Source: Paramagnetospirillum magnetotacticum MS-1
Lineage (GTDB): Bacteria > Pseudomonadota > Alphaproteobacteria > Rhodospirillales > Magnetospirillaceae
Assembly (NCBI RefSeq): GCF_000829825.1
Contig: NZ_JXSL01000030.1
Location: 255,501-319,500, forward strand
Direction: 5' to 3'
DNA length: 64,000 nt
Shown here: one piece after another, positions 16,917 through 28,869 of the stretch
Layout: each line of letters opens with the position of its first letter
Numbering within the stretch: the first letter of the stretch is position 1
The notes under the pieces: generated by a model
Database searches by the model: none
The model's input: only the letters and a program-made list of their open reading frames with translations
Told to the model about the DNA's origin: nothing
Program-made: the position numbers and the translations under genes

Positions 16917-17145
16917 GTTCAACTTAGCGGGAGAGGCCTGTCACGGCCTCACCCGGTCGCCCGCGATCATCGTCAACCACTGCGACAGGTCGAAACCGGC
17001 AGTGCGGGGGCCATCATTCCCAGGCAGACGTCAGTGTATGATCTGCTGGCCCGGTCGCAGGCGAGCATCGACCAGCGGGTTCGGTCAGTTCGTCGGGCAA
17101 GCTACGGTCGAAGAGCCCGCATTGACGGCCCTCATTGACTCTGAC

Positions 17146-17160
17146 GTTCTCTCTATGTTC
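17146..17160 (+). promoter_or_regulatory. LexA (SOS) box GTTC-N7-GTTC
   Basis: GTTCTCTCTATGTTC is an exact match to the alphaproteobacterial LexA operator GTTC-N7-GTTC. It lies 34 bp before the polymerase start at 17195, just downstream of a TTGACT that could be a -35 element. Position and match point to DNA-damage induction. Confidence 0.8.
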
Positions 17161-17194
17161 TTATTTATGCCCATTGATGAGCAAGGCGCCTCCC

Positions 17195-18442
17195 ATGCGC
17201 AAGCCGAACACCCCGGAACGTCTTTATCTCGATTTTGACGGCTTTTTCGCGTCGTGCGAACAGTTCGCCCATCCCCATCTGCGTGGAAAGCCCATCGGCG
17301 TCGTCCCCTTCGCCGGGGCGGTCAATACCTGTGTCATCGCCTGTTCCCGCGAGGCCAAGAAGCGCGGCGTCTCCAACGTGATGATGGTGAAGGACGCGCT
17401 CAGACTCTGTCCCGACCTGATCCTTCAGCCCCAGAACCCCGATCTTTACCGCCGTGCCCACAATGCCCTTCTATCGGAGATCGCCATGGTGATTCCCATT
17501 GATGCGGTAAAGTCCATCGACGAGCTGACCTGCCGTCTTGATCCCAGCCAGCAGCAAGATCCGTTGGCGGTTGGCGAGGCGATCAAGGCCCGCCTGCTCA
17601 AGCTGGTCGGCCCCTGGATCAAGTGCAGCCTCGGCTATGCCGCCAACCGGCAACTGGCCAAGATGGCCTGCAAGGCGGGCAAGCCGGACGGAAACATGCT
17701 GTGGCATCCGGACGACATGCCAGGGCCGCTCCTCAAGATTTCCATCCGCGACGTGCCCGGCATCGGCAAACGCATCCTGCACCGCCTCTGGGATGCCGGT
17801 ATCGTCGAAATGACCGACCTGCTGAATGCGCAGCCCAAGCAGATGCGCGCCATCTGGGGCAATGTAACGGGAGAACGTTTGTGGTACGCACTGCACGGCT
17901 ACGACATCCAGGCCCAAGCCTCGGAGCGCGGCATGTACGGCCATGGCCGGGTGATGCCGCCCGATCATCGCACCATGGCGGCGGTCAAGCCCATCTCCCG
18001 CCTGTTGCTGGTCAAGGCGGCGCGGCGGATGCGCCGCGACGGCTGGTCGGCTGGCCGCCTGTTTCTCTGGCTTGGAATGTGGGACGACTCGTGGAGTGGC
18101 AGCGCCTATCTGCCTGCCATTTCCGACGATCCCGGCATCTTGGACGCATTGGAGGAGATCTGGGCCAAGGCTCGGGCGGACCTTCCCCGCCGGGCCGTCA
18201 TCGCGCGCATTGGCGTCACCTTGGGGGAACTGAGCCGCACCGAACGGCGCCAACTGGATTTGCTGACCAATGACGAGCCGGTGCGAAAGCGGCTGGAGAC
18301 GGTCACCGACGCCATCGACCGATTGAACCGCCGCTATGGCCGCACCGTGGTCAGTGTCGGCCCGTGGGTAGCGCCGCCGGGCGATCATGCCGGAGGCAAG
18401 ATCTCGTACACCCGCATTCCGCGGGCAGAGGATTTCTACTGA
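17195..18442 (+). CDS. Divergent Y-family DNA polymerase (UmuC/DinB-like)
   Basis: 415 residues. Catalytic carboxylates of the Y family are kept: Asp13 and Asp15 in LYLDFDGFFASCEQ, and Asp109-Glu110 in KSIDELTCRL. The helix-hairpin-helix (IRDVPGIGKRILHRLWDAGI) and a little-finger-like C-terminal region follow. In the segment normally reading Y-x-A-R, whose Tyr and Arg contact the incoming nucleotide, it reads ACSREAKKRGV, so the Tyr-Arg pair looks replaced by Arg-Lys. The start was placed at 17195 because CAAGG lies eight bases upstream; 17177 is possible. The gene follows a LexA box and overlaps the next gene (TGATG). It is distinct from the DinB at 19756. Confidence 0.88.
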   Translation: MRKPNTPERLYLDFDGFFASCEQFAHPHLRGKPIGVVPFAGAVNTCVIACSREAKKRGVSNVMMVKDALRLCPDLILQPQNPDLYRRAHNALLSEIAMVIPIDAVKSIDELTCRLDPSQQQDPLAVGEAIKARLLKLVGPWIKCSLGYAANRQLAKMACKAGKPDGNMLWHPDDMPGPLLKISIRDVPGIGKRILHRLWDAGIVEMTDLLNAQPKQMRAIWGNVTGERLWYALHGYDIQAQASERGMYGHGRVMPPDHRTMAAVKPISRLLLVKAARRMRRDGWSAGRLFLWLGMWDDSWSGSAYLPAISDDPGILDALEEIWAKARADLPRRAVIARIGVTLGELSRTERRQLDLLTNDEPVRKRLETVTDAIDRLNRRYGRTVVSVGPWVAPPGDHAGGKISYTRIPRAEDFY

Positions 18443-18780: not shown

Positions 18781-19581
18781 CTAGTGACTCTTTGCCGCGG
18801 GCGGGGTTGATTGGGCCTTGGCTTTTTCCTGCACCGTTCGCTCGCGGATTTCGTCCGCCGCCTCGATGGCCTTGCGGCGCGAGCCGTCGGGGTCGAGGGC
18901 GTCCAGCGCTTCCGTGTCGGAATCGTCGCTGCCCATCTTCTTGCGCAACAGCTGAAGCGCCGACTTCTGTTTTTCGATCTCCGCCTGGGCCTCGGTCAGG
19001 TGGTGTTCGGCATGGACATAGGTGATGCCCATTTGCACGCCGGAGCCCAACGCGATCACCACCGACAGAACCCACAATATTCGGCTGGAAAGCAGCAGGC
19101 TGATGGAGGCGGCGACGATGGCGATCTCGGCGGCCACCTGCGCCTTTTCATAGCCTTCGGTGGCTTCGAAATGAGCCTCGATCAGCGGCGTATAGCTCTT
19201 GGACCAGGCCGAGGCGATGCGGCGCTCCTTGCGGTAGTCCAGCGCCAGCGAGATATAGCGCATCTTCTGCGCTTCGGTGACCGAGTCCGGGTCCTCGCGG
19301 CGCAGGCCTTCCACCTCGTTCATCATGGTGCGGTAGCGGGTCGAGGCGGCGGCGATGGTGTTGGAGACCTGGGTCTGCTGGATCAGCGCCCGCGTCGTCT
19401 CATTGCGCTCCGCCCCCACCCAGGCGGCACAGACGGCCACCAGGACGGCGATCAGACCCATGGTGACGCCGATCCGCTTGTTCATGCCGCCATGGTCGGC
19501 GCCACCGTTCTCGTCGTGATGAGCATGTTTGGCGTGCTCGATCTTCTCGGCGATTTCCATCCGCTCCGTCATCTGCGTCAT
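18781..19581 (-). CDS. DUF4337 family membrane protein
   Basis: 266 residues from the ATG at 19581, preceded by GGGAGA. After a charged, histidine-rich N-terminus come one hydrophobic segment (IGVTMGLIAVLVAVCAAWVG, about residues 37-56) and a pair near residues 150-190. A long polar helical region lies between them, and the C-terminal tail is charged and helical. This matches the DUF4337 family, whose role is unknown. The in-frame extension upstream to 19629 lacks a ribosome site. Confidence 0.75.
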   Translation of the reverse strand: MTQMTERMEIAEKIEHAKHAHHDENGGADHGGMNKRIGVTMGLIAVLVAVCAAWVGAERNETTRALIQQTQVSNTIAAASTRYRTMMNEVEGLRREDPDSVTEAQKMRYISLALDYRKERRIASAWSKSYTPLIEAHFEATEGYEKAQVAAEIAIVAASISLLLSSRILWVLSVVIALGSGVQMGITYVHAEHHLTEAQAEIEKQKSALQLLRKKMGSDDSDTEALDALDPDGSRRKAIEAADEIRERTVQEKAKAQSTPPAAKSH

Positions 19582-19755
19582 GGTCTTTGGGTCTCCCTGC
19601 GGCGAAGACGGCAAATAGACCACGAACAAAGGGCCATACGCCAGAGGGATAGCCCGTGGTCAAGGGAGGTTTCACCGCACCGGATTGCCCGATGGAAGGA
19701 CCGGAGGCTTTCTTTTGGGGTGGGCTGCCTCCCCCTCCCGCGCTATAGTCCGGTT

Positions 19756-20946
19756 ATGGGAACATATGGTGATCACACGCCGACAGTCTGCCGGGATTGC
19801 GGGGCTTCAGGAGCGGAAAGCGGTGTCTGTCCCGCCTGCGGGTCAGAACGGCTGGTGCGCCATGCCGAGCTTCTGGATCTTTCCATCGCCCATATCGACT
19901 GCGATGCCTTCTACGCTTCGGTGGAAAAGCGCGACAACCCGTCCCTGATGGACAAGCCGGTGATCGTCGGCCATCCGGGCGGACGGGGCGTGGTGACCAC
20001 GGCCTGCTATGTGGCGCGCAAATTCGGGCCGCGCTCGGCCATGCCCATGTTCAAGGCGCTGGAACTGTGCCCCCATGCCGTGGTCATCCCCCCCAACATG
20101 GCCAAATACAAGCAGGTCAGCGCCCATATCCGCGCCCTGTTCGAGAAAGCCACGCCCCTGGTGGAGCCCTTATCCCTGGACGAAGCCTATCTTGATCTGT
20201 CGTCCGGCATACGTCTGGTGGAGCGCCCGGCGGCGGTTCTTCTGGCCCGGCTGGCGCGGGCCATTCGCCGCGAGGTGGGAATCACCGTCTCGGTGGGCCT
20301 CAGCTACAACAAGTTCCTGGCCAAGATGGCGTCGGACCTCGACAAGCCCGAAGGCTTCTCGGTGATCGGCCGCGAGGAGGCGGCCGCGTTCCTGGCGCCG
20401 CGCCCGGTGACCGCCCTGTTCGGCATCGGCCAGGCCACGGCGGCGCGCATGGCCCGGCAGGGCATCACCACCATCGCCCAGCTTCAATCCCTGCCCGAGG
20501 CGGAATTCATGGCGCGCTGGGGCAGGTTCGGGCGGCGTCTGGCTGGCATGGTGCACGGCATCGACACCCGCGCCATCAATCCCGACCGCCCGGCCAAGAG
20601 CGTGTCCACCGAGACCACCTTCGCCCGCGACATCTCCGACGCCAAAGCCCTGGCCGAGGCGCTGGCACCCCTGGCCGAGGGCGTGGCCCGGCGCCTGGAG
20701 CGCGCACGTCTGGCGGGGCGCACCGTGGTGCTCAAGCTCAAGACCGGTGATTTCAAGCTGCTGACCCGCCACCACCGGCTGAGTGATCCCACCGGGCGGG
20801 CGGAGATCATCCTGCGCGCCGGTCTGGCCCTTCTCGATCGTCAGGCGGATGGACGGGCCTTCCGCCTGATCGGCATCGGCATCACCGACCTTTGCCCGGC
20901 CGAGGACGCCGACCCGCCCGATCTGTTCGGGCCGCGACCCGCCTAG
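19756..20946 (+). CDS. dinB: DNA polymerase IV with an N-terminal zinc ribbon
   Basis: 396 residues. Residues 12-30 hold a four-cysteine ribbon (CRDC ... CPAC) absent from E. coli DinB. The catalytic carboxylates are Asp48 and Asp50 in AHIDCDAFYASVE, and Asp142-Glu143 in SLDEAYLD; the nucleotide-contact YVARKFG segment is intact. The thumb helix-hairpin-helix (FGIGQATAARMARQGITTIA) and little finger follow. It performs translesion synthesis at stalled forks. It is only 1.3 kb from the other Y-family gene, but on sequence it is a separate, canonical DinB. No GTTC-N7-GTTC box is seen before it. Confidence 0.93.
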   Translation: MGTYGDHTPTVCRDCGASGAESGVCPACGSERLVRHAELLDLSIAHIDCDAFYASVEKRDNPSLMDKPVIVGHPGGRGVVTTACYVARKFGPRSAMPMFKALELCPHAVVIPPNMAKYKQVSAHIRALFEKATPLVEPLSLDEAYLDLSSGIRLVERPAAVLLARLARAIRREVGITVSVGLSYNKFLAKMASDLDKPEGFSVIGREEAAAFLAPRPVTALFGIGQATAARMARQGITTIAQLQSLPEAEFMARWGRFGRRLAGMVHGIDTRAINPDRPAKSVSTETTFARDISDAKALAEALAPLAEGVARRLERARLAGRTVVLKLKTGDFKLLTRHHRLSDPTGRAEIILRAGLALLDRQADGRAFRLIGIGITDLCPAEDADPPDLFGPRPA

Positions 20947-22622: not shown

Positions 22623-25112
22623 TCATGCAACCCCAGCCCCCACGGGCAGCCGCACGGTCACTACCGTACCCTGACCGGGCAAGGATGCCAATTCCACCCT
22701 TCCGCCATGCAGATCGACAAAGCGCTGGACCAGGGCCAGACCGATGCCGGAATCGTCGTCGCTCTGGCCGGCGGGCAGCACGTCACGGCGCCCGCCCGCG
22801 GCAAAGCCGCCGAACAGCCTTTCTTGCTGTTCGTCGGAAAGGCCGGTGCCGGTGTCGCTGATGGTCAGCGCCAGTTCTGTTGGCCGCCGTTCGGCCCGCA
22901 CGCTGACCTTGCCGCCCGAAGGCGTACGCTTCAAGGCATTGCCCAGCAGGTTGAACAGCACCTGACGCAAGCGGCGTTCGTCGGCGACGATCCAGCCGAT
23001 CTCCAGCGGGCAGTCGAAATCCAGGTGGACCTTCTTCTCGCGCACCCTTTCGCGCACCAGCCCCAAGACCCCCGACAGCATGGGGTGGATATCGACGGTA
23101 TCGAGTTCCAGGGCCATCTGCCCCGCCTCGATGGCGGCCAGATCGAGAATATCGGAGATCAGCGACTGCAACCCCTGGCCCGCCTCGGTGATGCCGCGGG
23201 CATATTCGTGCTGGCGCTTGTTGAGCTTGCCGAAATACTCGGCGGCCAGCATCTCGGAGAACCCGATCACCGTGGTCAGCGGCTTTCTGACCTCGGCCGA
23301 GACATTGGCGATGAACTCGCTTTTCAGCAGATCGGCGGCGGCCAGGGCCTCGTTCCTCTCGCGCAGCGCGCGCTCCACCCTGGCCGAATCGGTGACGTCC
23401 AGCCAGGTCAGCAGCATGGCCCCGTCGGGCAGCGGCACCGAGGCGAAATCCACGATGGAATCGTCAAGCCGCTCCACCCGTCCGCTTTGGGGCGCACGGG
23501 TATTGAACAGAGCCACCAGACGTTCGCGCACTTCCGGCCAGACCGAGGCGCGCTCGGCGCCGCCTTCGAAATAGGGCCGGTGGGCCTCCACCAGCTCGTT
23601 GAGATGGGGCTCGGTCTCCAGCAGGGTGACCGGCAGATTCCAGATGCGGGCATAGGCGGGATTGAACAGACGCAGGCGGCCATCGCCCCTGAACACCGCC
23701 ACGCCCTCGTGCAGGTGGTCCAGGGTTTCGCGCTGGACGGCGAGCGCGGTGTTGAAAGAGCGCTCCAGCGCCAGGGTGTCGGTCACATCCTCATAGGTGA
23801 AGATCAGGCCGCCATAGGGATGGGCGGCGATCATCCGGCGCAGCGTGCGGCCATCGGGCAGGTGCAGCAGGGTCTCGGCGGCATCGATCAGGGAGATGAA
23901 GCGTTTGAGTTCGTCTTCCTTATAGGCGCGGTAATCGGCCACTTCGGGCAGAAGGCGGCGTTCGCGCAGCGAATCCAGCACCGCGCCATAGGTGGGCTGG
24001 GCCTGCAGCCACTCGGCCTCCAGCCGCCACAGCCGGGTGAAGGCGGTGTTGAAGAAGGTCAGCCTGGTATCGGTGGAAAAGATGGCGATGGCGGTGGCCA
24101 GATGTTCCAGCACCTGGGCATGGGCGCTGGCGTGGCGCGCCAGTTCCACCTGCAGATCCTCGATGCGGGTCAGGTCCAGGGCATAACCGGCGGTCAGCAA
24201 CCCCCCGTCGGCGGCCTCGAACGGCGCCTCGGTGATCTCGGTGAAGCGGCGCTGGCCGCCCAAGACCAGATGGAAGGATTCGGCGCGGGGCTCGCCTGCC
24301 GCCCGCGCACGGGCCGCCAGGGCGCGGGCCTCGCGCACCGAACCGTCGGACGCCAGTTCGATCTGCCCTGCCACCGCCGCATGGGGCGAGGCCACGTCCA
24401 CCGCCCTGGCATAGGCCCGGTTGACGTGAAGCAGGGACAGATCGTCGTCACGCACCCAGACGGGAATGGGCAGCACGCCCAGCAGACCGTCGATGCGCTC
24501 TCGCTCGGCCGCCAGCCCGGCCAGACGGGTGGCCAGTTCGGCTTCAAAGGCGGCCCCTTCGGTGACGTCATGCATCCAGATCAGGTCGGCGAGCGCCGTC
24601 CCTTCGGGGCTCGACGCGCGGACACCGGCGGCGCGGACCCGGCGCCCCCCATCCCTGAGGCGCAATTCCAGTTCGAAGCCCGCGCCTTCCTCGCGCAGAC
24701 GCCGCGCCGCGCCGTCCAGTTGGGCGGCATCGGCGGCGGCAAAGGATTCCAGCACATCCATGAAGGTGGATTCGGTGCCGCCGAACAGACCCAGCAGCAC
24801 GGCAAGACGCCGCGAGCAGATCTCGCGCTCGGCTCCCAGCCAGGCATAAAAGCCGTCGGGCGCCGCCAGCAGGCTTTCGGTCAGTCGCTCGGCCAGACCG
24901 GCGGCACGGCTCGCATCGGCGGCCAGCCCCACCATGCGCCAGCGCAGCAGAGCCAAGACGGCCAAGGCGGGGATCAGGATAAGCAGGGCGCCGATGCCCA
25001 GCGACAGGGGATCGAAGCGAAGCGACGCCAGAGACGAAGCCTCATCAGCCGCCGCCGCACCCGACGCCAGCATCAATGCCAATCCCGCCGCGATCGCCGC
25101 GCGCATTTGCAT
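22623..25112 (-). CDS. DivL-like multi-PAS histidine pseudokinase (phospho-acceptor His replaced by Ala)
   Basis: 829 residues. Order: signal/TM N-terminus (TM about 38-57), about four PAS-type repeats between 85 and 570, a dimerisation helix pair (594-660) and an HATPase domain (about 705-820). The H box reads NVSAEVRKPLT: the histidine normally before ELRTPLT is Ala606. The ATP-binding N box (NLLGNALKRT), G1 (ISDTGTGL) and G2 (SGIGLALV) are intact. The layout and H-box neighbourhood (LLKSEFIANV, GFSEML, KRQHEYARG) match DivL, which in Caulobacter carries Tyr there and acts through the CckA-CtrA pathway. The true start could be 25106 (better ribosome spacing). Confidence 0.88.
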   Translation of the reverse strand: MQMRAAIAAGLALMLASGAAAADEASSLASLRFDPLSLGIGALLILIPALAVLALLRWRMVGLAADASRAAGLAERLTESLLAAPDGFYAWLGAEREICSRRLAVLLGLFGGTESTFMDVLESFAAADAAQLDGAARRLREEGAGFELELRLRDGGRRVRAAGVRASSPEGTALADLIWMHDVTEGAAFEAELATRLAGLAAERERIDGLLGVLPIPVWVRDDDLSLLHVNRAYARAVDVASPHAAVAGQIELASDGSVREARALAARARAAGEPRAESFHLVLGGQRRFTEITEAPFEAADGGLLTAGYALDLTRIEDLQVELARHASAHAQVLEHLATAIAIFSTDTRLTFFNTAFTRLWRLEAEWLQAQPTYGAVLDSLRERRLLPEVADYRAYKEDELKRFISLIDAAETLLHLPDGRTLRRMIAAHPYGGLIFTYEDVTDTLALERSFNTALAVQRETLDHLHEGVAVFRGDGRLRLFNPAYARIWNLPVTLLETEPHLNELVEAHRPYFEGGAERASVWPEVRERLVALFNTRAPQSGRVERLDDSIVDFASVPLPDGAMLLTWLDVTDSARVERALRERNEALAAADLLKSEFIANVSAEVRKPLTTVIGFSEMLAAEYFGKLNKRQHEYARGITEAGQGLQSLISDILDLAAIEAGQMALELDTVDIHPMLSGVLGLVRERVREKKVHLDFDCPLEIGWIVADERRLRQVLFNLLGNALKRTPSGGKVSVRAERRPTELALTISDTGTGLSDEQQERLFGGFAAGGRRDVLPAGQSDDDSGIGLALVQRFVDLHGGRVELASLPGQGTVVTVRLPVGAGVA

Positions 25113-25224: not shown

Positions 25225-25803
25225 ATGCTGAAGGGTCTTTACGATTGGATGATGGCCAAGGCGGCCCATCGCCACGCCATCTGGTGGCTGGCGGCCATTT
25301 CCTTCATCGAAAGCTCGTTCTTTCCCATACCACCCGACGTCATGCTGATCCCCATGGTGGTCGCCGCGCCCACCCGGTGGTGGCGCATCGCCCTGATCTG
25401 CACCCTGTCTTCGGTGGTGGGCGGCTATCTCGGCTATGCCATCGGCTATTTCGCCATGGATTCCATCGGTATGGCCATTCTGGGCGTCTTCCATCTCCAG
25501 GAAAAGTTCCAGGCCTTGAAGCCGATCATCGACGAATGGGGCGTGTGGTTCATCATCATCAAGGGCGCCACCCCCATTCCCTACAAGCTGGTGACCATCA
25601 CGGCGGGCGCCTTCCACTTCGATCTGGCCAAGTTCACCTTCGCCTCCATCCTGGCGCGCGGCATGCGCTTCATCCTGGTGGCGGCCCTGTTGTGGAAGTT
25701 CGGCCCGCCCGTGCGCGACTTCGTGGAACGCCGGTTGAAACTGGTCACCACTGTGTTCGTCGTGGTGCTGGTGGGCGGCTTCTTCCTGGTGAAACTGCTG
25801 TAG
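25225..25803 (+). CDS. DedA/YqaA family membrane protein
   Basis: 192 residues with four to five hydrophobic segments. The family fingerprint is SFIESSFFPIPPDVMLIPMV near residues 30-49 (the acid-plus-proline re-entrant loop of the SNARE-associated/DedA group) with a later IIIKGATPIPYKLVTITAGA. Members of this family help keep membrane lipid balance and proton homeostasis; the exact cargo here is unknown. The ATG at 25225 has GGGGAG eight bases upstream. It is divergent from the DivL-like gene, 112 bp away. Confidence 0.85.
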   Translation: MLKGLYDWMMAKAAHRHAIWWLAAISFIESSFFPIPPDVMLIPMVVAAPTRWWRIALICTLSSVVGGYLGYAIGYFAMDSIGMAILGVFHLQEKFQALKPIIDEWGVWFIIIKGATPIPYKLVTITAGAFHFDLAKFTFASILARGMRFILVAALLWKFGPPVRDFVERRLKLVTTVFVVVLVGGFFLVKLL

Positions 25804-26266: not shown

Positions 26267-26701
26267 TCACTCTTCGTCCTTGTCCTTGCGGCGATGGATG
26301 TTCAATCCGACTTCGTCGAGGAAGGCCTGTTCCTTCTTGTCGCGCTCGGCCTGGGCGCGGCGTTCGCGTTCCTTCTGGGTGATCTCGTAGGTCTTCAGTT
26401 CGTTGAAGGCGTCGGCCAGTTCGTCGCGGGCCTTGACGATTTCGCGGCGCACCTGTTCGAGCATCTGCATCAGCTGCTCGCGCCGGGCCAGCCAGGCATT
26501 GGCGAAGGTGGCATAGGCGAAGCCCACGCCCACCGAGTCGTCGGACGCCACCTGCTGCTCGTGGATCAGGGTCTGCTCGGCATGTTGAATGGCGGCCAGG
26601 ATCTCGTCCTCGCGCCCTTGCAGCGCCACCAGGACCCGCTGTTTTTCATCAACGTTCCACTTGGACAGGCGGATGAGGGTTTTCAGCCCCTTGTCGGCCA
26701 T
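26267..26701 (-). CDS. fliJ: Flagellar export protein FliJ-like
   Basis: 144 residues, almost wholly helical and highly charged, with the heptad pattern of FliJ (antiparallel coiled coil): LIRLSKWNVDEKQRVLVALQ at the start and a long ARDELADAFNELKTYEITQK coil near residues 90-110. FliJ is the stalk-like partner of FliI in the flagellar type III export ATPase. FliI sits 7 bp upstream in the same direction, which fixes the assignment better than sequence alone. Confidence 0.88.
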   Translation of the reverse strand: MADKGLKTLIRLSKWNVDEKQRVLVALQGREDEILAAIQHAEQTLIHEQQVASDDSVGVGFAYATFANAWLARREQLMQMLEQVRREIVKARDELADAFNELKTYEITQKERERRAQAERDKKEQAFLDEVGLNIHRRKDKDEE

Positions 26702-26708
26702 TCAGGAC

Positions 26709-28061
26709 CTACTTTCGCCCCATGCCGTCGCCGTCGAACGGCATGCCCAGCACCTCGGCCAACTGGGCGTAGCAGGTCTGAAGATTGGTGGACTCGGTCT
26801 TCAACTGGCCCAGAAAGGCTTCGATGGCCGGATAATAATGAATGGCCTCGTCCACCTTGGGGTCGGTGCCCCGGCGATAGGCGCCCAGACGGATCAGTTC
26901 GGCCATGTCCTCGTAGGTGGAGAGCAGGGCGCGGGCGCGCCGCACCAGATCGTTCTCCTGCTGGTTATTGCAGCCGGGCATGGTTCGGCTGACCGAACGC
27001 AGGATGTTGATGGCGGGATAGCGTCCGCGCTCAGCAATGGAGCGGTCCAGCACGATATGGCCGTCCAGGATGCCACGCACCGCGTCGGCGATGGGCTCGT
27101 TGTGATCGTCGGCATCCACCAGCACGGTGAACAGCCCAGTGATGGAGCCCTTGCCCGTCCCCGGCCCGGCCCGCTCCAGCAGGCGGGGCAGTTCGGCGAA
27201 GACGGTGGGGGTATAGCCCTTGGAGGCGGGCGGCTCGCCCGCCGACAGGGAAATCTCGCGCTGGGCCATGGCGAAACGGGTCACCGAATCCATCATGCAC
27301 AGCACGTCCAGGCCCTGGTCGCGGAAATATTCGGCCACGGTCAGCGTCATATAGGCCGCCTGACGGCGCAGCAGGGGGCTTTCGTCCGAAGTGGAGACCA
27401 CCACCACCGAACGCTTCATGCCCTCAGGGCCCAGATCGTCCTCGATGAATTCGCGGGCCTCGCGGCCGCGTTCGCCGATCAGGCCCAGAACCGCGATATC
27501 GGCCGAGGTGTTGCGCGCCATCATGGACATGATGGACGACTTGCCCACGCCCGATCCGGCAAAGATCCCCATGCGCTGTCCCCGGCAGCAGGTGAGGAAG
27601 GCGTTGACCGAACGCAGGCCCAGATCGATCTTGCCCGACACCCGCGTGCGGGAATGGGCCGAGGGCGGTTGGGCCTTGACCGGATAGGCGATGTCGCCGC
27701 CGGGCAGCGGCCCCAGCCCGTCCACCGGCTCGCCAAAGCCGTTGATGACGCGGCCCAGCCAGCCGCGATCGGGATAGACCACCGGCTCGGCATCCTGCAC
27801 CTCGGTGCGGCAGCCCAGCCCGATTCCTTCGATGGGAGAATAGGGCATCAACAGAGCGCGGCCCTGGCGAAAGCCCACAACTTCGCAGATCACCCGGCGG
27901 CCATCACGGGCCACCACGTTGCAGCGATCGCCCACGGAAATGGTCCGCTGGACGCCTCCGGCCTCCAGCAACATGCCCTGAACGGCAGCAATCTGGCCGT
28001 AAACCTGGATGTTGGAGACCCGTTCAATATCGCTGATCAGGTTGCGGACCAGGAATTTCAA
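26709..28061 (-). CDS. fliI: Flagellum-specific ATP synthase FliI
   Basis: ATPase that powers flagellar type III secretion; 450 residues, the usual size. The Walker A loop is AGSGVGKSS with Lys174, followed by the family strands [17 protein letters not shown] and the Walker B region [20 protein letters not shown]. The N-terminal beta-barrel ([20 protein letters not shown]) is F1-like. It forms an operon with fliJ and is divergent from ctrA across 91 bp that contain a CtrA-like half site. No other flagellar genes are within the window. Confidence 0.95.
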
Positions 28062-28152: not shown

Positions 28153-28869
28153 ATGCGTGTATTGGTGGTCGAAGACGACCAGTTGATGTCCAGAGCCATC
28201 GAAGCCATGCTCAAAGCCGAGGGCATGGTGGTCGATACCACTGCTTTAGGCGAGGATGGCCTGGAGATTGGCAAGCTCTATGACTACGACATCATACTGC
28301 TGGACCTGATGCTGCCCGATATGGACGGCTATGAAGTGCTGCGCCGCCTGCGCTCGGCGCGCATCGAGACGCCTGTCCTGATCCTGTCGGGCCTCTCCGA
28401 ACCGGACAAGAAGATCAAGGGCCTGGGCTCGGGCGCCGATGATTACCTGACCAAACCCTTCGACAAGGGCGAACTGGTGGCCCGTATCCAGGCCATCGTG
28501 CGCCGCTCCAAGGGCCATGCCCAGTCGGTGATCGACACCGGCAAGCTGTCGGTGAACCTGGATGCCCGCACCGTCGCCGTCACCGGCGATCCGCTCCACC
28601 TCACCGCAAAGGAATACGGCATCCTGGAACTGCTCAGCTTGCGCAAGGGCCAGACGCTGACCAAGGAGCAGTTCCTCAACCACCTCTACGGCGGCATCGA
28701 CGAGCCCGAGTTGAAGATCATCGACGTCTTCATCTGCAAGCTCCGAAAGAAGCTGGCCACCGCAACGGGCGGCGAATCCTATATCGAGACGGTGTGGGGA
28801 CGCGGCTATGTGCTCCGCGATCCCGACCTGCCCGCCGCCAATTCCAACAAGGCGGGCGCGGCGGAATAG
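28153..28869 (+). CDS. ctrA: Cell cycle response regulator CtrA
   Basis: OmpR-type regulator of 238 residues. The receiver domain has acidic EDD at residues 7-9, the phospho-acceptor Asp51 in [11 protein letters not shown] and the conserved Lys in [14 protein letters not shown]. The C-terminal winged helix contains [20 protein letters not shown], nearly invariant in CtrA across alphaproteobacteria. In Rhodospirillales CtrA mainly controls flagellar and chemotaxis genes and is not always essential. A DivL-like protein of the same pathway is encoded 3 kb away. Confidence 0.97.

Follow-up and report, generated by a model that had tools for sequence, protein, structure and literature searches.

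The stretch analysed here, a 64,000-nucleotide segment of Paramagnetospirillum magnetotacticum MS-1 (contig NZ_JXSL01000030.1, positions 255,501 to 319,500; hereafter the window), carries a divL gene whose product has an alanine where histidine kinases have their phospho-acceptor histidine. The coordinates of divL, of its domains and boxes, and of the neighboring genes are listed in Table 1. Pfam searches detected HisKA (2.2e-15) and HATPase_c (7.6e-25), with PAS_7, PAS_8 and PAS_4 N-terminal of both, and the order PAS repeats, HisKA, HATPase_c expected of DivL was found both with Pfam and in a predicted structure (model m8556e4ffa31a, mean predicted local distance difference test score of 83.2). 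Judging from the secondary structure of this model, the PAS region would comprise four PAS-like alpha/beta units. A preliminary description made from the nucleotide letters had reported Ala606 in an H box reading NVSAEVRKPLT together with intact N, G1 and G2 boxes, which our reading of the 829-residue open reading frame confirmed. The phosphorylatable His required of an active histidine kinase is therefore absent, in an otherwise intact H box.

Table 1. Features of the divL locus and its surroundings (window coordinates).
Feature	Position	Strand	Description or basis
divL	25112..22623	minus	829 amino acids; open reading frame with N-terminal membrane helix, PAS domains, DHp (HisKA) and CA (HATPase_c)
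divL hydrophobic helix, residues ~37-60	24933..25004	minus	Likely membrane anchor from sequence reading; model helix 35-82
divL PAS region, residues 86-572	23397..24857	minus	Pfam PAS_7, PAS_8, PAS_4; predicted model
divL DHp two-helix domain, residues 574-662	23127..23393	minus	HisKA 597-664; model helices 574-623 and 632-662
divL H box NVSAEVRKPLT, residues 603-613	23274..23306	minus	Sequence
divL Ala606 codon GCC, place of the phospho-acceptor His (Tyr550 of Caulobacter DivL)	23295..23297	minus	Sequence
divL CA (ATP-binding) domain, residues 671-826	22635..23102	minus	
divL N box RQVLFNLLGNALKRTP with Asn725	22920..22967	minus	Sequence
divL G1 box DTGTG, residues 753-757	22842..22856	minus	Sequence
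divL G2 box GIGL, residues 789-792	22737..22748	minus	Sequence
dedA-like gene (VTT domain), divergent from divL	25225..25803	plus	Pfam VTT_dom, 39.8 bits
fliJ-like gene	26267..26701	minus	Pfam FliJ, 27.8 bits, just below the cut-off of 28.4
fliI	26709..28061	minus	NCBIfam TIGR03498, 671.7 bits, cut-off 587
ctrA	28153..28869	plus	NCBIfam NF045991 CtrA equivalog, 410 bits, cut-off 350

Tree grouping, structural database matches and the set of pathway partners all support the identification of this protein as a DivL orthologue. Its best sequence match in the PDB is Caulobacter DivL (4q20, 2.2e-40; next best 8.3e-33), and a search of its own genome, which matched 95 places overall, returned the protein itself at 1784 bits and a second match, carrying His, at 174 bits. 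His occupies the acceptor column in all 11 paralogous histidine kinases read from this genome. We compiled 277 non-redundant DivL loci, of which 130 belong to the order Rhodospirillales (53 of them to the window's family, Magnetospirillaceae), 82 to other orders of the class and 65 to named contigs; before counting, we removed duplicates (four loci of the order and two from the class search) and 21 loci identical to a kept one over the last 300 residues. In a FastTree phylogeny of near full-length sequences from these loci and the 11 paralogues, computed without column 606, one change separates DivL from the paralogues and the window's family forms one clade. The DivL clade holds near full-length sequences representing 24 families of the order as well as other orders, the latter with H boxes of the NVSYELRTPL type. 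The tyrosine described as conserved in DivL is absent from the window protein, but we did not treat it as defining because the clade itself varies (Tyr in 28 of 130 order loci and 72 of 82 loci of other orders). That the protein is instead some other PAS histidine kinase that has lost its His is hardly credible: a structure comparison with VIA-align ties the DivL entry with ZraS, and the paralogues match 4q20 too, at lower scores, but the near full-length relatives stand as a single clade apart from these paralogues, and the ten tips nearest to 4q20 in a tree of DHp and CA alone are all DivL loci.

Ala606 is the usual state of the family and not a private oddity of one strain. It was found in 17/17 loci of the genus and in 48 of the 53 family loci, the others having Cys (4) or Val (1); Tyr, His and Phe did not occur, and a divL match was absent in 2 of 55 family genomes. 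The preliminary description had proposed recording this residue across Rhodospirillales and had regarded His in close homologues as a sign of sequencing error or recent loss. With Ala in all 17 genus loci and neither His nor Tyr in any family locus, both causes are rejected. The rest of the order is highly variable (77 loci: Tyr 28, His 19, Ala 8, Phe 7, Arg 3, Met 3, Glu 3, Gln 2, Asn 1, Gly 1 and two without DHp), the residues met in the order overall being A, Y, H, F, C, R, M, E, Q, V, N and G, and a residue other than Tyr occurs in 16 of its 23 other families. Tyr predominates among the 82 loci of other orders (Tyr 72, His 4, Phe 2, and Ser, Thr, Lys and Gly once each) and the 65 named contigs (Tyr 50, His 9, Asn 2, Phe, Ile and Arg once each, column absent in one). 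These loci were chosen by search score and not at random: 94 of 130 matching genomes were read for the order, and the loci of other orders were drawn from the top of a capped ranking (183 matching genomes among 289). Five Azospirillum-titled loci (L203, L213, L217, L221 and L225) have His at the site (NVSHHLR); these proteins lie in the same clade as the window DivL but carry His in five of six Azospirillum-titled loci, the sixth, Azospirillum sp. B4 (L177), having Tyr.

Childers 2014 (PMC4211667) describes Tyr throughout DivL homologues with the exception of an alanine in Magnetospirillum magneticum, so that Ala in Magnetospirillum DivL was already published; this non-phosphorylatable alanine, which we compared by description only, is shared with the window protein. 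About 1% of histidine kinases carry another residue at the acceptor site (Childers and Shapiro 2014, PMC5361649). We found no report of order-wide variability of the DivL acceptor site in the literature searched. The window protein is a well-supported DivL of the Ala type, and the present comparison adds that non-phosphorylatable residues are fixed across the sampled family and that the site is free across the order. Such variability corrects the published view of Tyr as conserved throughout DivL and offers natural alleles (A, C, V, F, H, M, R and Q) with which to test the role of the residue.

Parsimony places 32 changes at site 606 in the order (tree length 51.9), 9 in other orders (64.0) and 4 in the family (10.5), which amounts to 0.62 changes per unit branch length in the order versus 0.14 in other orders. 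Within columns 600 to 615, site 606 changes most in the order, and Glu607 (6) and Pro611 (2) change little. On the other hand, a relaxation unique to site 606 would be too strong a claim, since 14 of 576 columns, site 606 included, equal or exceed its order to other-orders ratio of 4.22. Because columns 600, 608, 609 and 612 are among these, much of the H-box region is relaxed in the order, and Ala606 is one outcome of this relaxed constraint. The reconstruction with fewest changes gives Tyr at the DivL root and His in the paralogues. On this reconstruction, Tyr gave way to His roughly eight times within the order, not counting an ambiguous deep case, and four times elsewhere; these counts are approximate, given the weak deep branches and the fixed preference used to break ties. 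Cys rows lie near the base of one family subclade and beside the window's genus, leaving Ala or Cys for the family ancestor. The idea that regaining His means regaining kinase activity was unsupported: within the order, all ATP boxes were kept by 13 of the 19 loci with His and by 21 of the 28 with Tyr, and of nine independent pairs none spoke for it and two against.

The window genome encodes DivK, CckA, ChpT and CtrA, in agreement with the CtrA-pathway setting suggested beforehand. DivK gave one strong match (72% to the query, the next-ranked at 40%); its closest entry in the PDB is DivK 1m5t (3.9e-54). CckA is a 796-residue hybrid kinase with best PDB matches to 5idj (1.2e-68, titled CckA) and 5idm (named CckA). 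PF10090, used here for ChpT, scored above cut-off in the window genome and, of 14 control genomes, in Caulobacter alone. DivK was present in 17 of 18 family genomes searched, the exception being a 0.9-Mb genome that also lacks DivL.

Taken together, orthology, the residue distribution, the presence of the partners and purifying selection on DHp and CA argue that the window DivL is most likely an allosteric pseudo-histidine kinase, a phosphate-free reader of phosphorylated DivK (DivK~P) that controls CckA. By analogy with Caulobacter, DivK~P, a response regulator, would dock on the DHp face of DivL, with the PAS/DHp body relaying the result to CckA, which would set CtrA phosphorylation via ChpT. 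Ala606 makes phosphorylation at the site impossible. Position 610, the fourth after 606, usually carries the ExxT phosphatase residue, which Lys610 removes. With both Ala606 and Lys610, DivL could therefore only bind DivK, not modify it. Caulobacter crescentus DivL (4q20) shares with the window protein the H-box context, the residues R553, T557 and A601 and the four partners, and differs from it in having Tyr550 for Ala606, Thr554 for Lys610, His579 for Tyr637, Tyr562 for Phe618 and Asp595, a proposed partner of Arg553, for Ser653. Lys is found at position 610 in 31 of 53 family loci and 12 of 17 genus loci, and position 653 is Ser, Ala or Gly in 53/53 family loci, which thus have no equivalent of Asp595. 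Coupling of Tyr606 with Asp or Asn at position 653 (the Asp595 switch partner in Caulobacter) was not shown among 21 independent pairs (3.7 for, 2.9 against), nor was coupling of site 606 with position 610 significant (3.3 for, 0.8 against).

The docking residues agree in part with those of Caulobacter, in which R553A, T557N, Y562A and H579E weaken DivK~P binding and Y550H does not (Childers 2014, PMC4211667). The window protein has the Caulobacter residues at R609 and T613 and differs at F618 and Y637, each of the four being invariant in 17/17 genus loci. Using five docking positions chosen by us (607, 609, 611, 612 and 618), the mean number kept was 4.77 in 78 loci with both DivK and a DHp domain, versus 3.29 in 14 loci without a DivK match. 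Tyr550 itself has been proposed to touch DivK~P in Caulobacter (Childers 2014). A family without Tyr, Phe or His at the site (0/53), yet with DivK (17/18 genomes), constitutes a natural test of this contact model.

Selective constraint was estimated as the ratio of nonsynonymous to synonymous substitution rates (dN/dS; Nei-Gojobori medians over 21 non-independent pairs of seven close congeners). The medians were 0.05 for DHp, 0.12 for CA and 0.48 for the N-terminus; the most constrained PAS unit reached 0.03 and the remaining ones 0.11-0.16. The full set of three ATP boxes is retained by 46 of 53 family loci. The other seven have lost one or more: L024 (G1 only), L025, L028, L031 and L032, all from the window's genus, and L034 and L040, through five changes on the tree. 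The CA domain of the window protein is thus still selected (dN/dS of 0.12), but ATP binding looks dispensable in sister lineages because boxes have been lost there. The preliminary description had called the protein a pure pseudokinase. This stands for site 606; it does not imply loss of ATP binding, as the window protein retains the boxes and only some relatives lack them. The retained boxes and the purifying selection on CA would fit an ATP-dependent partner acting in trans, in which the pocket of the Ala-bearing DivL phosphorylates the DHp of a heterodimer partner (CckA or a PleC-like kinase), or ATP binding gates it. We consider this improbable given the box losses in 7/53 family loci, the persistence of constraint on DHp (dN/dS of 0.04) in L028, L031 and L032 despite their lost boxes, and the dispensability of the Caulobacter CA domain as cited in PMC4211667. 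A related and quite speculative scheme, to which we give little weight, is that the family DivL is a nucleotide-gated, phosphate-free switch whose ATP pocket is selected for ATP sensing or phosphorylation of a partner DHp, the order having freed the acceptor site, so that its lineages might switch among Tyr, Phe, His, Ala, Cys and further residues while keeping DivK coupling. Across loci, the boxes are intact in 60 of 80 with DivK (2 of the 80 being without the domain) versus 4 of 14 without DivK, and only 1.7 of 11 independent pairs linked DivK loss to ATP-box loss.

Several points weigh against the reading of DivL as a phosphate-free DivK~P reader. Binding of DivK~P and control of CckA in the family are extrapolated from Caulobacter. 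The association between DivK and the docking positions draws on a small number of independent pairs (agreement in 5.2 of 11, opposition in none, no difference in 5.8; median p of 0.06), and the DivK absence call (cut-off E of 1e-38) is soft, as one genome of genus g18 passes at 4.6e-40 and another fails. The tree of DHp and CA alone does not place the paralogues on one side, and of the seven family loci that lack an ATP box, five belong to the window's own genus. In genus g5, moreover, Arg609 is replaced by Ala (9) or Ser (4) in 13/13 loci, with DivK found in 5/5 genomes searched. Docking may thus already differ inside the family, because R553A, at the Caulobacter counterpart of Arg609, disrupts DivK~P binding. 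The g5 loci without Arg609 are L029, L042, L043, L045-L053 and L055.

DivL also stops before DHp in L136 (genome G149), L138 (G135), G142 and G155 although a clear DivK (82-83% identical) is present; for G142 and G155 the short DivL is known from match coordinates only. These cases go against the published rule, because Brilli 2010, which places Magnetospirillum with PleC-DivK, ties short DivL to the absence of DivK. Three loci of genus g61 (L131, L132 and L145) have an unrecognizable H box, in genomes without a DivK match at E 1e-38.

The short, PAS-only DivL of Rhodobacterales (PMC9430884) resembles the window protein in being a DivL without kinase chemistry, but the latter retains DHp and CA and its genome has DivK. 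Conceivably, DHp-CA is drifting in the family after loss of the DivK role, with only the PAS part acting on CckA as in those short proteins. Decay of CA in several family lineages, the loss of Arg609 in g5 and the short DivLs of L136 and L138 despite DivK would accord with such drift. We nevertheless regard it as unlikely, since in the genus only one PAS unit is more constrained than DHp, and none of the docking positions varies among the 17 genus loci.

The ctrA gene had been noted 3 kb from divL as part of the same pathway. The distance is correct (ctrA starts at 28153, 3,041 bp from the divL start), but it is weak evidence, as the linkage is local. The upstream (ctrA) side of divL was read in a further 40 genomes of the family, over at least 6 kb in 35 of these. 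fliJ, fliI and CtrA (96-99.6% identical) lie upstream of divL in 5 of 16 congeners (one read for 2.9 kb only), with CtrA at 3.2-6.0 kb, and the close congener G009 has no ctrA within 8.9 kb upstream. None of the 21 genomes of other family genera read for at least 6 kb has a strong CtrA upstream, no match exceeding 33% identity; four of them give CtrA matches of 31-32% only. Linkage to ctrA as a conserved unit is thus rejected, with a strong CtrA in only 5 of 40 family genomes, all from the window's genus. In another genus, L357 has a 36% FliI-like match upstream. The dedA-like gene is a more widely kept neighbor than ctrA, adjoining divL in 30 of 53 family loci. Elsewhere in the window, two genes for Y-family (impB/mucB/samB) DNA polymerases lie close together on the plus strand (17135-18442 and 18811-20946).
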